From the IMG/VR virus record IMGVR_UViG_3300042691_022212, positions 1 through 23,064 of that record: 23,064 bases of DNA; one strand, 5' to 3'. A program made the translations under genes and the position numbers. The DNA comes from a virus. Position 1 is the first letter of the stretch, and each line of letters opens with the position of its first letter. The notes under the pieces are model-generated. The model was not told where the DNA came from. It did no database searches and was given only the letters and a program-made list of their open reading frames with translations. Positions 771 through 9,935 of this stretch are shown here, piece after piece.

Positions 771-796
771 AACACAACCTAAGTTGTGTTTTTTTT
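771..796 (+). terminator. Rho-independent terminator
   Basis: Perfect 8-bp stem AACACAAC/GTTGTGTT (771-778 and 783-790) with a 4-base loop, followed by a T tract. It lies after the gene ending at 740 and before the promoter-like motif at 807, separating two transcription units. Confidence 0.8.
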
Positions 797-806
797 ATTT
801 AAATAA

Positions 807-814
807 TATTTATA
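807..814 (+). promoter_or_regulatory. TATTTATA motif, candidate phage late promoter
   Basis: Exact TATTTATA within AATAATATTTATAAATTA, ending 17 bases before the ATG at 832 and directly after a terminator. One of a recurrent set in this window upstream of + strand genes; see the matching finding. Confidence 0.5.
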
Positions 815-831
815 AATTAAAACTATATTTT

Positions 832-2292
832 ATGAAACATTTATTAAATGATATATCAGAATCTGAAAACAATAGAATTTTAGAACAATACAACAATTCG
901 TTATTGGTTAATACTTCTAAATTCAAAAAGCTATTGGAATCAAAACTTGGGGATGTTAAACCTATTATGGAAAAGAGAAACAATATAACATTAATAAATG
1001 AAGATTCAGTTATACCATTTAAGAATAATAATGAAGGTAACCGATTTAGAAATTGGGTAAATGATAAATTTCCAGGAGTCGCTAAAGAATTACAATTAGA
1101 TAGAGAAGGTGCGTATAATAATTATTATATTCAAAAAGCATGGAATTATTTCGTAGGTATTGGTAAAACTGGGGAGACCTTGGGAGATAAATATATAAAG
1201 TCAAGTATTGCAAAAATTGGTGCTTTTGGTAGTGGTTTAAATGACAATTCTATTACTAATTCAAAACCTGAAGTATCTAATAAAATACCATTTAAGAATA
1301 ATAATGAAGGTAACCGATTTAGAAATTGGGTAAATGATACTTATCCTAAAATTGCTAGTGGATTAAAATTAGATAGAGAAGGGGAATACAACAATTATTA
1401 TATTCAGACAGCTTGGAATTATAAAGTTGGTAATTATACATTAGGGGAATTATATTCAACCCTAAAAATGTTTAATCCGGTAGGAAATTGGACTTCTAAT
1501 TTACAAACAGACCCAGTATCAAAATCTAAATTACCTTCATGTGTTTCAATTGGTGTTGGTGGTGAAGATTGGTGTAGTAAAATAAATCCAAATGGTTCTG
1601 TAGTTATAAGTGCAGGTAACCCAGATGTAGGTTGTTCAAGATTTACAAGAGAGTGTTTAGACGATTATAGAGTAAATCTAAGACTTGGAAATGCTTGGGA
1701 CGCTTTTAATAATTTATATGATTGGTTTGGAATGTCACCAGGAAAAATAAAATATAATTTATATGATTCTCTAGATTGGGAGAATATACATAAATTAGTT
1801 AAACAAAATAAAATAACTAAAAATTTGTGTAAAACTACATTTACTAAAGTTGGTCAAGATAGTGTAAATCCAATAATTAGAAATATGATAATAAATAGTA
1901 ATATAATTCCTAATTCATCAGGAGTGAATGTATCCTCTTTAGAATTAGGTGATTTTGTTGGTGTATATTATCCAGGTTCTAAAAGTATGGGTCATGCTCT
2001 TTGTGAAAAATTAATACAAAACAATCTTGATGATAGTAGTAATTTTTCACAAAATAAATTCACATTTAACACCCATATTGGTTTTGTTGGGGCAATAAAA
2101 AATGGTGAACCAATCATATATCACCAAACATATGATAAATGGATGGCAACACCCGCAAAGTTAATGCTGAGTAAAAATAGTTCAGATGGCATGATAGCTT
2201 GGGTAAGACAAAATCCTACAGTTTCAAGTAAGACTAAAAAAATTGCCGATAAATTAACAGAACATTACAGAAATATCAATAACATAATCTAA
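832..2292 (+). CDS. NlpC/P60-like putative cell-wall hydrolase with duplicated N-terminal domain
   Basis: A 486-residue protein starting MKHLLNDISESE. I use the ATG at 832 because it follows the TATTTATA motif; the frame extends upstream only through the preceding terminator. Residues 61-115 and 152-205 are two copies of a domain beginning IPFKNNNEGNRFRNWVND and containing LDREG-YNNYYIQ-AWNY. From memory this resembles peptidoglycan-binding-like repeats in phage proteins, but that is not proven. The C-terminal half looks like a papain-fold NlpC/P60 or CHAP-type domain: candidate nucleophile C268 in GCSRFTREC, LGDFVGVYYPG preceding the histidine as in this fold, candidate H415 in THIGFVG, and H431 in IIYH. 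The likely role is cleavage of host peptidoglycan, as an endolysin or virion-associated lysin. No signal peptide is seen. Spanin-like genes about 2 kb downstream fit a lysis role. The catalytic assignment is by pattern only. Confidence 0.72.
   Translation: MKHLLNDISESENNRILEQYNNSLLVNTSKFKKLLESKLGDVKPIMEKRNNITLINEDSVIPFKNNNEGNRFRNWVNDKFPGVAKELQLDREGAYNNYYIQKAWNYFVGIGKTGETLGDKYIKSSIAKIGAFGSGLNDNSITNSKPEVSNKIPFKNNNEGNRFRNWVNDTYPKIASGLKLDREGEYNNYYIQTAWNYKVGNYTLGELYSTLKMFNPVGNWTSNLQTDPVSKSKLPSCVSIGVGGEDWCSKINPNGSVVISAGNPDVGCSRFTRECLDDYRVNLRLGNAWDAFNNLYDWFGMSPGKIKYNLYDSLDWENIHKLVKQNKITKNLCKTTFTKVGQDSVNPIIRNMIINSNIIPNSSGVNVSSLELGDFVGVYYPGSKSMGHALCEKLIQNNLDDSSNFSQNKFTFNTHIGFVGAIKNGEPIIYHQTYDKWMATPAKLMLSKNSSDGMIAWVRQNPTVSSKTKKIADKLTEHYRNINNII
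1012..1339 (+). repeat. 55-bp perfect direct repeat (1012-1066 and 1285-1339)
   Basis: The two domain copies in the hydrolase gene share 55 identical bases (offset 273), encoding IPFKNNNEGNRFRNWVND. The flanking parts of the copies have diverged in both DNA and protein. This indicates duplication with recent homogenisation, or a very constrained segment. Confidence 0.85.
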
Positions 2293-2315
2293 TTTAGAAA
2301 TTACTAAAATTTAGT

Positions 2316-3020
2316 TTAAATAAATTTCCCAACAATATAAATTGGTGGGGTTTTTATACCAAAAATTCTTTTAAAAATTGTTGGTACTGATTGATAAGTG
2401 TGTGAATCATCAGAGTTACCAATTTTTAAATCAATAGAACTTCCACCATCAAATAATAACCCATCAGTTATCCCTAACTTTAATGCGAATTGACAAATAT
2501 CATACATTGAGATAAATCCCCATCTAGTTGAATGGATTATAACTAAATCACCTTTTTTATTTTTACCAATAATTGTTCTATATAGTTTTTTTGAGTTAAT
2601 TTTAGTATTAGTAACATTTGTATTTATTTTACCATTTATAATACCTCTATATGCTGTTTGGACACAATTAGATGATGATGGAACACAACCATACATAGAA
2701 ATAAATGGTTTATTATTAATCGTATAGAATGACCCTCCAAATCTACTCTGTGTATTAATTACTTTGCCATTAACTTTAGCAAAACCTTCAATAGTACCAT
2801 CAGATTTGAAAAAATTAGCATTCAAATAAAAATCATATTTTTCTGATTTTTTAGTGTCAGTTGAAAAATTCATATGTTTACTATCTATTGTTATGATAGT
2901 AAGTCCTTTTGAAATTGAGGTTTCAACTGAAAAATATTTATTTTTTATACTATTGTATCCTCCAATAAATGAATAAATTAAAGGTAACAAGATAATGATA
3001 ATAATGAAACTCTTTCTCAT
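2316..3020 (-). CDS. Secreted phosphodiester glycosidase-like (NAGPA/DUF2233) protein
   Basis: A 234-residue protein with an N-terminal hydrophobic signal or anchor (MRKSFIIIIILLPLIYSFIGG), so it probably acts outside the cytoplasm. The body carries hallmarks of the phosphodiester glycosidase family (NAGPA domain, DUF2233; exopolysaccharide-related proteins): YLNANFF at 65-71, RTIIGK at 148-153, and a GLLFDGGSSIDL block (DGGSS 191-195) followed by SVPTIF. Relatives cleave phosphodiester-linked sugars or act on surface glycans. For a phage this suggests change to the host surface, such as superinfection exclusion or release of progeny, which is inference. The gene is transcribed against its neighbours and ends 23 bases from the hydrolase gene. 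Upstream at 3060-3053 is an exact TATATTTG, matching the Bacteroidetes -7 consensus TAnnTTTG. Its isolated orientation suggests an accessory (moron) gene. Confidence 0.75.
   Translation of the reverse strand: MRKSFIIIIILLPLIYSFIGGYNSIKNKYFSVETSISKGLTIITIDSKHMNFSTDTKKSEKYDFYLNANFFKSDGTIEGFAKVNGKVINTQSRFGGSFYTINNKPFISMYGCVPSSSNCVQTAYRGIINGKINTNVTNTKINSKKLYRTIIGKNKKGDLVIIHSTRWGFISMYDICQFALKLGITDGLLFDGGSSIDLKIGNSDDSHTYQSVPTIFKRIFGIKTPPIYIVGKFI
2328..2355 (+). terminator. Probable terminator between convergent genes
   Basis: Hairpin CCCAACAAT/ATTGGTGGG with one mismatch and a short AT loop, followed by GTTTTTAT. It overlaps the 3' end of the minus-strand glycosidase gene and would stop transcription coming from the hydrolase gene. 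Confidence 0.5.
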
Positions 3021-3052
3021 ATTATAAGTTTTAATTGGTTAGAAAATACTAT

Positions 3053-3060
3053 CAAATATA
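3053..3060 (-). promoter_or_regulatory. Bacteroidetes-type -7 box (TAnnTTTG)
   Basis: On the minus strand this reads TATATTTG, an exact match to the TAnnTTTG consensus of Bacteroidetes vegetative promoters, 32 bases before the glycosidase start. No clear -33 TTG box is present at the expected spacing, so confidence is limited. Confidence 0.4.
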
Positions 3061-3118
3061 TAACCAAGACCAAAATAAATTAGTTCACTCAATTTAAAAA
3101 TAATAATAAAAATATAAA

Positions 3119-3147
3119 AGTGTGGGAAATTATCTCACACTTTTTTT
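3119..3147 (+). terminator. Rho-independent terminator in a divergent region
   Basis: Stem AGTGTGGG/CTCACACT (one G-U pair) with a 7-base AT loop, followed by seven T. It lies between two divergent genes, directly before the tandem TATTTATA motifs, and so insulates the gene at 3178 from upstream transcription. Confidence 0.75.
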
Positions 3148-3177: not shown

Positions 3178-3711
3178 ATGAAAAAAATTAGTCGTTCACC
3201 AAGTAATGATATTAAGTTTGATAATAATGTGACTTATAATGATAATTTCGCTGATTGGTTAACGGAAATGGTTGACCATTGGGCTAAGAACTATACTGGA
3301 TGTACATTTGAAATTAGACAAGTTGGAACTGAAGGGACTCAAGTAGAGATTGAGTCAAAACCAAAACAAAATATAAATTTTGATTGTAGTAATAGTTTAA
3401 ATACAGATTTAAGTAAGGTTAATAAAATAAAATATGAAAAAAAAGCAAGCGAAACTAAAACTTATTATATTGTAACTTGGAAAACTGAATCAAAAGAAAC
3501 ACCAAAAAAAGATAGTTCTAAATCTAAAACTGGAACTACTGATAATGAACAAGATTCTGAAATTCCATCTTCTCTTAAACAATTAGTTGCACCTTTGGCT
3601 AATAAAGTTGCAACAAGTATTAGAAGTGCCACAAATATAACTAATGAGGAAAAAGAAATTAATAAAAAATTATTAGAAGAAATTGATAGAATTAAAGAAT
3701 TATTAAAATAA
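3178..3711 (+). CDS. Hypothetical protein
   Basis: A 177-residue soluble protein that I do not recognise. The N-terminal ~100 residues look like a small mixed alpha/beta domain: NFADWLTEMVDHWAKNYTGCTFEIRQVGTEG, then TKTYYIVTWKTESK. A low-complexity linker rich in Lys, Ser, Thr and Glu follows (about 105-128, SKETPKKDSSKSKTGTT). The end is a helical tail with coiled-coil character (EEKEINKKLLEEIDRIKELL). There is no signal peptide. Two TATTTATA motifs precede it and a strong terminator follows, so it seems to be a single-gene transcript. A globular head, linker and coiled coil would suit a virion or adaptor protein, but nothing here assigns a function. Confidence 0.75.
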   Translation: MKKISRSPSNDIKFDNNVTYNDNFADWLTEMVDHWAKNYTGCTFEIRQVGTEGTQVEIESKPKQNINFDCSNSLNTDLSKVNKIKYEKKASETKTYYIVTWKTESKETPKKDSSKSKTGTTDNEQDSEIPSSLKQLVAPLANKVATSIRSATNITNEEKEINKKLLEEIDRIKELLK

Positions 3712-3762: not shown

Positions 3763-3927
3763 TTATTTCTCAACTTTAGCAGTGTCTACAGATGGAGTTG
3801 TTACTGTAGTAACTTCAACTTTAGTTGAATCTTCAGTTGATTTAACTTCTTCAGTTTTAGTTTGTGATTCACAAGATGTGAAAATAGCACCAAGTACTAA
3901 TGCTGTTCCAAAAATTACTTTTTTCAT
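3763..3927 (-). CDS. Small lipoprotein
   Basis: A 54-residue protein starting MKKVIFGTALVLGAIFTSCE. It has a Lys-Lys N-terminus, a hydrophobic core and a lipobox-like IFTSC with the lipidated cysteine at position 19, typical of Bacteroidetes lipoproteins. The mature part is only about 36 residues, made mostly of Thr, Ser, Val, Lys and Glu (TKTEEVKSTEDSTKVEV), so it is probably an unstructured, membrane-tethered peptide. It is convergent with the gene ending at 3711, with a shared terminator, and has its own promoter-like sequence (TTGACT-N17-TATTTA on the minus strand, 4002-3974). Possible roles are superinfection exclusion or an envelope function in lysis; neither is shown by the sequence. 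Its opposite strand and separate transcription suggest a moron gene. It is short, but the intact signal peptide makes coding very likely. Confidence 0.8.
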   Translation of the reverse strand: MKKVIFGTALVLGAIFTSCESQTKTEEVKSTEDSTKVEVTTVTTPSVDTAKVEK

Positions 3928-4055: not shown

Positions 4056-4409
4056 ATGAATTGGAAACACACCCTAATTATCGTGGTATCAATATTATTG
4101 ATTGGGATTATTTTGGGTTATATGATGAATACAAATCATCAAGATAACAAGAAATTACAACAACAAATTATTGATGCTGAAAAGAAAGCCATAGATTCTC
4201 TATATAAAAAATTGGATGTAATGAAATCTGAGAGAGAAAAAATGGAATCCCAGTTGGATATCTTAACTACAAGCATTCAAATGAGTGAAAGTAATCTAAC
4301 ATCAAAAATAAACCAATTAAAAATTCAAAACAATGTTAAGATTGACGCTATTATTAATAGTTCTAATGACCAGCTCTTGGATGGTTTGCGCACAAGGTTT
4401 AACCAATAA
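4056..4409 (+). CDS. Inner-membrane coiled-coil protein, candidate i-spanin (Rz-like)
   Basis: A 117-residue protein with one N-terminal membrane segment (HTLIIVVSILLIGIILGYMM, residues 5-24), followed by about 80 residues of heptad-like coiled coil (KKLQQQIIDAEKKAIDSLYKK onward, then EREKMESQLDILTT). This topology, an N-terminal anchor with a periplasmic coiled coil, is that of inner-membrane spanins (Rz type), which join with an outer-membrane partner to fuse the envelope at lysis. The last 77 bases overlap a second gene in another frame that starts with its own signal sequence, as in Rz/Rz1 pairs. Spanins have little sequence conservation, so the call rests on topology and gene arrangement. 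A generic membrane-anchored structural protein is the alternative. Confidence 0.6.
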   Translation: MNWKHTLIIVVSILLIGIILGYMMNTNHQDNKKLQQQIIDAEKKAIDSLYKKLDVMKSEREKMESQLDILTTSIQMSESNLTSKINQLKIQNNVKIDAIINSSNDQLLDGLRTRFNQ

Positions 4410-7895: not shown

Positions 7896-7922
7896 AAAAA
7901 GGGACTATTCAGTCCCTTTTTT
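7895..7922. terminator. Bidirectional terminator between peptidase and Clp genes
   Basis: Stem GGGACT/AGTCCC (7901-7906 and 7911-7916), extended by A and T runs on either side, works on both strands. It overlaps the last codons of the minus-strand Clp gene, including its stop at 7907-7905. Confidence 0.8.
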
Positions 7923-9935
7923 CTTTTTTGATTTTTTAACTTCTTTTTCTTTAAACACTATGTTTTCTTCATTGGTTGTGAGTTCATAATTTTGATTCTC
8001 AACAACATTTCCGTTAAGTACTTCCTCTGATATGAAATCTTCAATTTTGTCTTGTATGGCTCGTTTTATTGGTCTAGCACCATATGTTTCATCAAACCCA
8101 ACTTTTGATATTAAGTCATAAACAGATTCATCGCAAGTTATATTATAATTTAATCCATTTAATCTAGTGATTAATTTTTCAATTTCAAGTTTTACAATTT
8201 GTTTAACTTCTTCTTCTTTCAATGTATTAAATACAATAATTTCATCAATACGATTTAAGAACTCAGGTGCAAAAAACTTTTTAAGTTCTTTCTTGAGAAT
8301 ATCTCTTTTCTCTTCTTCCTCAATATAAGAATTTGAACTTGTTTTGAATCCAACTCCAGTTCCAAATTCTTGGAATTTTTTAACCCCAAGATTGGAGGTC
8401 ATAATTATGATACAATTTTTGAAGTTAATTTTTCTTCCTAGTCCATCTGTAAGATGTCCATCATCCAATACTTGAAGTAATGTTGAGAACACATCTTTAT
8501 TTGCTTTTTCAATTTCATCAAATAGAATGACTGAATATGGTTTATTTTTAACTTGTTCAGTTAATTGTCCCCCTTCATCATAACCAACATAACCTGGAGG
8601 AGAACCAATCAATCTTGATATTGAATGTTTTTCTTGGAATTCTGACATATCAACTCGGATAAGATTTTCTTCACTACCAAATATTTCTTTTGCCAATTGT
8701 TTTGCTAGATATGTTTTACCAACACCAGTTGAACCCAAGAAAATAAATGAACCTATAGGTTTACTTGGGTCTTTAATACCAAGTCTATTTCTACGGATTG
8801 ATTTGGCAATTTTGGATACAGCGTCAGATTGACCAATAACTTTAGATGATAGATTATCCGCCAATGATGAAAGTTTATTCGTTTCATCAGAATTCATTTT
8901 TGATACAGGTATTTTAGTCATATTTGATACCACTTCATATACCAATTCTTGAGAAATTTCTTTCTTTTTGGTTAATAAGTCAGATTCAAATTTTTTCTTT
9001 TCAGATTCTAATTTATCCAATATCTTTGTTTCTTTATCACGCAAATCTGCCGCTAATTCATAGTTTTGACTTTTAACCACTTCAATCTTTTGTTGTTTAA
9101 TATCTAGTGCTTGAAGTTTCAAATCTTCAATTATTTGTGGCATCTTAGTGTCAACTTGACTTCTTGCTCCAACCTCATCAATAATATCAAATGCTTTATC
9201 AGGGAATTCTCTATCGGTAATATATCTTTCAGCTAAATCTACACATAGTTTTAGAATATCATCACTATAATTTACTTTATGATAATTTTCATATTTGTCT
9301 TTAACATTAATTAAAATCTGTAAGGTTTCTTCTTTTGAAGATGGGTCAACAATTACTTTTTGGAAACGTCTTTCTAATGCCCCATCTTTTTCAAAATTCT
9401 TTCTATATTCATCTAGTGTTGTTGCACCAATACATTGTATTTCACCCCTTGCCAAAGCTGGTTTAAAAATGTTTGAGGCATCCAATGAACCTGATGAATT
9501 TCCAGCACCAACAATTTGGTGTATTTCATCAATGAAAAGAATTATATTTGGAGCAGATTGTAGTTCTTCTATAATAACTTTCATTCTTTCTTCAAATTGT
9601 CCACGATATTTTGTTCCCGCGACAATTGATGTCATATCCAAGGACATAATTCTTTTATCCATTAGATTTCTTGGACATTCACCATTCAATATTTTTAAGG
9701 CCAAACCTTCCACTATGGCAGTTTTACCACAACCAGGTTCACCTATTATGATTGGGTTATTCTTTTTCCTTCTTGATAATATTTGGGCGATTCTTGTTAT
9801 TTCTCTATCTCTACCTACCACTGGGTCTAATTTTCCTTCTTCGGCAAGTTTGATTAAATCTTTCGCAAAGTTATTTAACACTGGGGTATCACCTTTACCT
9901 TTTGTTGAGTAATCTCCATCTTTTGATTCTATCAT
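7905..9935 (-). CDS. ClpC-like AAA+ unfoldase lacking the N-terminal domain
   Basis: A 676-residue double-ring Hsp100 ATPase. Ring 1: Walker A GEPGCGKT (65-72), pore loop KYRG (109-112), Walker B IILFIDE (131-137), arginine fingers R189/R190. A short middle domain (about 270-335) holds a UVR-like NYELAADLRDKE, which points to ClpC rather than ClpB. Ring 2: Walker A GSTGVGKT (401-408), pore loop GYVGYDEGG, Walker B VILFDE (469-474), NRID (561-564), and a sensor-2 region YGARPIKRAI. VGF (528-530) sits where ClpC carries its ClpP-docking loop, so it probably feeds the host ClpP. The usual Clp N-domain (about 140-150 residues, binding adaptors) is replaced by a ~20-residue polar leader. The Lys-rich C-terminus overlaps the terminator. 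The gene is divergent from the UVR-protein gene and convergent with the peptidase gene. It could unfold host or phage proteins, perhaps tmRNA-tagged ones. Confidence 0.9.
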   Translation of the reverse strand: MIESKDGDYSTKGKGDTPVLNNFAKDLIKLAEEGKLDPVVGRDREITRIAQILSRRKKNNPIIIGEPGCGKTAIVEGLALKILNGECPRNLMDKRIMSLDMTSIVAGTKYRGQFEERMKVIIEELQSAPNIILFIDEIHQIVGAGNSSGSLDASNIFKPALARGEIQCIGATTLDEYRKNFEKDGALERRFQKVIVDPSSKEETLQILINVKDKYENYHKVNYSDDILKLCVDLAERYITDREFPDKAFDIIDEVGARSQVDTKMPQIIEDLKLQALDIKQQKIEVVKSQNYELAADLRDKETKILDKLESEKKKFESDLLTKKKEISQELVYEVVSNMTKIPVSKMNSDETNKLSSLADNLSSKVIGQSDAVSKIAKSIRRNRLGIKDPSKPIGSFIFLGSTGVGKTYLAKQLAKEIFGSEENLIRVDMSEFQEKHSISRLIGSPPGYVGYDEGGQLTEQVKNKPYSVILFDEIEKANKDVFSTLLQVLDDGHLTDGLGRKINFKNCIIIMTSNLGVKKFQEFGTGVGFKTSSNSYIEEEEKRDILKKELKKFFAPEFLNRIDEIIVFNTLKEEEVKQIVKLEIEKLITRLNGLNYNITCDESVYDLISKVGFDETYGARPIKRAIQDKIEDFISEEVLNGNVVENQNYELTTNEENIVFKEKEVKKSKKKKGTE

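Follow-up and report, generated by a model that had tools for sequence, protein, structure and literature searches.

A putative exported NAGPA-family protein encoded by an accessory gene in a T4-like phage fragment

Why should a T4-like phage carry, on the strand opposite to most neighbouring genes, a small separate gene of the NAGPA (phosphodiester glycosidase) family, and what could its product do during infection? This question is raised by the IMG/VR record IMGVR_UViG_3300042691_022212, of which the whole 23,064-nt stretch analysed here is called the window. The window is a T4-like phage fragment, since its portal (PHROGs phrog_213, 216.6 bits), maturation (prohead) protease (phrog_207, 147.7 bits) and terminase large subunit (phrog_5989, 85.5 bits) are of T4 type. 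By portal, the named phages that come closest include Microcystis phage Mel-JY01 (40.4%) and Flavobacterium phages immuto (39.2%), which makes a Bacteroidota host plausible, and the host probably belongs to this phylum. At least 598 portal relatives were confirmed in viral contigs, and the best 80 of these were kept. Note that a ClpB-like gene (window 7905-9935), conserved in this phage group, is split after about codon 69 by about 1.7 kb in L096 (G004) and G005, perhaps by an intron or a homing endonuclease. Two MAG contigs of 109.7 and 87.2 kb (L113 and L114; Flavobacteriia and Bacteroidia) also encode ClpB-like proteins, with 57-58% identity to the phage one; these contigs could come from phages and have been binned with a host.

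The gene and its predicted N-terminal segment are located as follows.
2316..3020, minus strand: NAGPA-family (phosphodiester glycosidase) ORF, 234 aa (PF09992 match and whole-window profile scan)
2958..3020, minus strand: residues 1-21, a hydrophobic stretch read directly from the translation as signal peptide or membrane anchor

The reading frame is intact, with an ATG start, 234 codons to the stop and zero internal stops; by our estimate, the chance survival of an open frame of 234 codons at ~25% GC is near 1e-9. The Pfam profile PF09992 (NAGPA) matches residues 66-204 (E 1.5e-9, 38.7 bits, for a curated cut-off of 25 bits), and in a scan of the whole window it finds this ORF as its single place (E 1.0e-11, 39.3 bits), so that the E-value of the profile excludes a chance match. 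PHROGs and NCBIfam gave no good family for the ORF (best E-values of 0.059 and 0.0065, unannotated or below cut-off). The closest solved structure found with phmmer is the uncovering enzyme NAGPA (6PKU), matched over residues 146-200 only (E 0.014). When a profile was made from eight family sequences including the window protein, it reached 6U11, 6PKU, 3OHG and others with E-values from 2.7e-29 to 2.8e-15, which identifies this set as NAGPA/DUF2233 family. The single-sequence AlphaFold model of the ORF was poor (pLDDT 40.7) and was left out of the fold search. The preliminary description had proposed a NAGPA/DUF2233-like protein on the opposite strand, and the PF09992 score and the minus-strand frame bear out both points.

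The family match is accompanied by conserved residues, N67, R148 and D191 being the only columns invariant (12/12) in a family alignment of 12 sequences, while S195, G79, G85, G130 and G152 are common to 11 of the 12.
2820..2822, minus strand: codon of N67, invariant 12/12
2577..2579, minus strand: codon of R148, invariant 12/12
2448..2450, minus strand: codon of D191 in the motif FDGGSS, invariant 12/12

This alignment is remote and its rows are not independent (L110 is similar to L112); it comprises the window protein, three proteins from Bacteroidota genomes, E. coli YigE, four phage proteins (Ayka, SPO1 gp2.43, YomE and JLBYU50) and three fecal 'Bacteriophage sp.' records, which look bacterial by eye and were kept. 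The window protein reads FDGGSS where most family members have DGGGS, G396 has DSGSS and G372 has DAGAA. The three invariant residues are putatively catalytic. Both the family match and the conserved residues, on which the preliminary description had staked the identification, are thus present.

Concerning export, the N-terminus (MRKSFIIIIILLPLIYSFIGG), read by eye, resembles a signal peptide or a membrane anchor, and this direct reading supports the earlier view of a signal-bearing protein with an export-type hydrophobic N-terminus. The relative encoded in bacterial genome G396 carries TYAS followed by Q, fitting the Bacteroidetes Q-rule (PMC5837995). By eye, no plausible Gln site of the Bacteroidota-type signal peptidase was seen in the window protein, and an uncleaved anchor is therefore as likely as a cleaved signal. 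If anchored in the inner membrane, the protein may reach few substrates.

Our comparison with related phages suggests that the gene is an accessory one. PF09992, which detects the window copy, found nothing in two sets of related phage records (0/48 and 0/47), which include records of 128-271 kb and not all of which span the NAGPA locus. Three local profiles run over 171 related loci (the best 80 portal relatives plus 78 and 13 from further searches, overlaps included) did not find the gene either, apart from two marginal partial matches with one profile (L219 18185-19381, E 0.0013; L213 18717-19943, E 0.0034), which cover model positions 36-109 only and were set aside as chance. In addition, tblastn found the gene in none of the 22 distinct contigs (counted by contig name) that hold both borders of the island around it (ORF 462-740 and ORF 4056-4409). 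In L203 and L204, whose layouts resemble the window most, the flanking genes are separated by 88 nt, against 886 nt in the window, and homology with them restarts at window 3106, ahead of the hairpin and leader of ORF 3178 (both nearly identical in these two relatives), which places the insert, including the upstream region of the gene, at about 2293-3105.
2293..3105, no strand: segment without counterpart in L203/L204, holding the NAGPA gene and its upstream region (88 versus 886 nt between flanking genes)

On both sides, the gene adjoins phage sequence with 78-96% identity to the closest relatives, and the composition (GC 0.24-0.28) is near the phage's own. A larger single exchange event is also possible, because the C-terminal half of the neighbouring ORF 784-2292 likewise lacks a counterpart in L203/L204. 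These absences, together with the insertion between conserved flanks, support an accessory gene acquired in one lineage, and the moron proposed beforehand is upheld in this sense. The gene had also been called unusual in a T4-like phage, which holds for this group (0/95 related records) but not for phages in general, as the family occurs in SPO1, SPbeta, an E. coli phage and a Curtobacterium phage. Searches with the single protein confirmed no close relative in viral contigs, genome contigs or plasmids, and among phages they returned Ayka alone, at an E-value of 5; with a two-sequence profile, 71 pattern matches in viral contigs were obtained and 0 were confirmed.

The insert also holds a possible element of expression, and a hairpin stands just beyond it.
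3053..3060, minus strand: Bacteroidota-type -7 box TATATTTG, 33 nt upstream of the ATG, inside the insert (motif scan)
3116..3144, plus strand: terminator-like hairpin within the ORF 3178-3711 leader, with nearly the same sequence in L203 and L204

A host-like promoter stands in part, as the -7 box named beforehand is present but no -33 element (TTTG) was found 17-23 nt upstream of it, and a full Bacteroidota promoter with the usual spacing was rejected. The box itself is weak evidence, since TANNTTTG is expected 43.4 times in the window and was found 55 times. No terminator-like site was found just past 2316 on the minus strand, and the hairpin at 3116-3144 lies outside the insert, as its near identity in L203/L204 indicates.

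In bacteria, the best relative found is a 245-aa protein of genome G396 (E 1.4e-27, 32% identity), which itself passes PF09992 with 38.4 bits. The search in bacterial genomes thus gave a remote relative but no close one confirmed in genome contigs. The subfamily is rare, given the few matches across genome sets: 3/395 genomes at E <=0.001 in the class of G049, with only G396 strong; 2/87 in the order of G396, namely G396 itself and one YigE-like protein; 1/395, a weak match, in the order of G049; and 3/395 in the phylum, with G372 best. The G396 gene lies directly after an lpxC-fabZ-type ORF and lpxA, and before a sulfatase-superfamily ORF that is LTA-synthase-like by eye.

Altogether, we propose that the gene encodes an accessory phosphodiester glycosidase that is exported and acts on a glycan in the envelope of the infected cell, with a change of the cell surface as the likely benefit, a reading for and against which our confidence is evenly balanced. 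The stand-alone gene would have been acquired horizontally by one lineage of T4-like phage of (probably) Bacteroidota; the protein, made in the infected cell, would be exported or anchored through its hydrophobic N-terminal segment, placing the catalytic domain in the periplasm or beyond, and would hydrolyse a sugar-1-phosphate diester in a glycan or glycolipid of the envelope (a decoration of LPS or lipid A, a capsule or a teichoic-like polymer). The changed surface could mask receptors against further phages, or ease release with fewer progeny lost on debris; the receptor or capsule alteration, superinfection block and progeny release put forward in the preliminary description are hypothetical. 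The family, the conserved residues, the accessory status and the place in a variable island are shown here; export, enzymatic activity, substrate and benefit are what we infer. A narrower version, which we regard as rather improbable, is that the enzyme edits host lipid A/LPS during infection by removing a sugar held by a 1-phosphate diester, the bacterial relative in this subfamily being encoded with lipid A genes. This linkage was seen in one genome only and may be accidental, because the order of G396 adds just one YigE-like match among 87 genomes. If true, such editing would mean that a phage remodels the Bacteroidota outer membrane from inside.

The neighbours of the gene bear on how its product could be used.
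784..2292, plus strand: neighbour, 502 aa (488 from an ATG at ~826), lysin-like by eye only
3178..3711, plus strand: neighbour, 177 aa, 63-65% identical in L203/L204, with the tag EEIDRIKELLK at its end
3763..3927, minus strand: small lipoprotein-like ORF of 54 aa at the edge of the island, widely conserved in relatives

The small lipoprotein-like ORF was present in 47 of 91 loci examined, duplicate contigs included. Between the same borders, relatives encode an M23-type protein (31.2 bits in L219, above the cut-off, and 20.4 bits in L092, below it), an M48/M78-like zincin (L218, M48 at 22.6 bits for a cut-off of 20.3) or, in L203 (1213-3917) and L204 (6231-8957), two successive ORFs with the SGCxN-type motifs SFGCVNVP and SSGCFNVS. 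These ORFs resemble L,D-transpeptidases by eye, and Pfam returned 0 families for both of the L203 copies; the second has its N-terminal part in common with window ORF 784-2292, whose C-terminal part has no relatives. On this partial evidence, we read the island as a probable exchange site for envelope-related genes. As such, it would be a locus swapping probable envelope-active genes in an uncultured phage group, and a place to seek receptor- or lysis-related genes. Unrelated-looking island proteins (window 3178-3711, L092, L219, L220, L207 and L203) have a common tag at the C-terminus, (L/I)xEEhxRIKxLhK (e.g., KLLEEIDRIKELLK), which in this phage group may serve head targeting or processing.

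The same neighbourhood brings in a helper of lysis or egress, which would strip phosphodiester-linked polymers for the lysin-like protein of ORF 784-2292 or free progeny from debris. The two genes are convergent, and the NAGPA gene and the C-terminal part of ORF 784-2292 are the pieces of the island that are unique relative to L203/L204; moreover, some bacterial NAGPA proteins also have an NlpC/P60 peptidase domain, according to a published survey (PMC12419801). However, the two convergent genes do not form one operon, and no notable match to ORF 784-2292 was found in Pfam, phages or the PDB, so that its identity as a lysin is by eye only. We consider this role unlikely, and the exported, surface-altering enzyme remains our preferred reading.

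It is known that the NAGPA family occurs in phages. A search with the Ayka domain matched 42 phage records at E <=1, which by name comprise 34 Bacillus, 3 Escherichia, 3 'Bacteriophage sp.', 1 Curtobacterium (Ayka itself) and 1 Kurthia. The domain lies in a 568-aa protein annotated as tail spike in Ayka (Curtobacterium phage), in a 437-aa protein in SPO1 (gp2.43), in 644 aa with a beta-helix in YomE (SPbeta) and in 857 aa with Tail_spike_N in JLBYU50 (E. coli phage); in SPO1, YomE and Ayka, the family members are in or adjoining tail genes, a setting for envelope glycans. The name Acinetobacter phage MD-2021a, considered as a phage with a YigE-type exported NAGPA, was rejected since both records (L283, CAKLQH020000039.1; L284, CAKLQF020000009.1) carry metK, tktA, trmA and putA and look like pieces of bacterial chromosome under a wrong name.

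A virion-associated depolymerase, carried on the particle and acting during adsorption, a role that has been proposed for NAGPA domains of other phages, would agree with these larger proteins (of which those of Ayka and JLBYU50 are spike-type, judged by name or domain) and with the published Curtobacterium prophage depolymerases of the NAGPA family (PMC9862828). The window gene, however, encodes the domain alone, as a single-domain ORF of 234 aa whose N-terminus is hydrophobic. The gene runs against most of its neighbours, no tail gene was recognised beside it, and its product lacks the C-terminal RIKxLL tag of the island neighbours. We give this depolymerase a slim chance. A nutrient or metabolic gene, which would supply the infected cell with sugar or phosphate released from glycans of the envelope or the environment, has a slimmer one: the YigE, G396 and G455 proteins also begin hydrophobic, as for exported housekeeping enzymes, but no phosphate-uptake or sugar genes were recognised beside the NAGPA gene in the window, and a short lytic cycle gains little from such a supply. 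Least probable of all is an assembly artefact (a misjoined bacterial fragment) or a decaying, functionless passenger, which would agree with the gene being in one record only, with no near relative anywhere searched, but not with the phage flanks, the right junction just before a conserved leader, the phage-like GC, and the intact frame and invariant residues.

Compared with known systems, the preferred exported enzyme shares with the uncovering enzyme (UCE, 6PKU) and the DUF2233 protein (3OHG) the profile match and N67, R148 and D191, whereas it is short (234 aa), has DGGSS and not DGGGS, is phage-encoded and bears a putative N-terminal anchor, its activity being putative as well. The 245-aa G396 protein and E. 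coli YigE are like it in size, N-terminal hydrophobic segment and family, but they are chromosomal, are 30-32% and 26% identical to it, respectively, and YigE has DGT where the family has DGG. Superinfection-exclusion morons such as P22 SieA and gtrABC (PMC10883804) are likewise accessory, directed to the membrane or periplasm and capable of a possible surface change, whereas the window phage is not known as temperate and its exclusion role would be hypothetical. Within the texts, partly excerpts, that our literature search covered, no paper on an exported stand-alone phage NAGPA was found. Finally, SPO1, YomE, JLBYU50 and Ayka belong to the same Pfam family, but there the domain belongs to larger proteins (437-857 aa), at least two of them spike-type, that are probably virion-borne, whereas the window encodes a separate 234-aa protein with an export-type N-terminus, which argues for a different use. 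The phage NAGPA domains otherwise examined, in larger and mostly spike-type proteins, meet the cell from outside; a separate exported NAGPA would mean that a T4-like phage alters envelope phosphodiesters from inside the infected cell.
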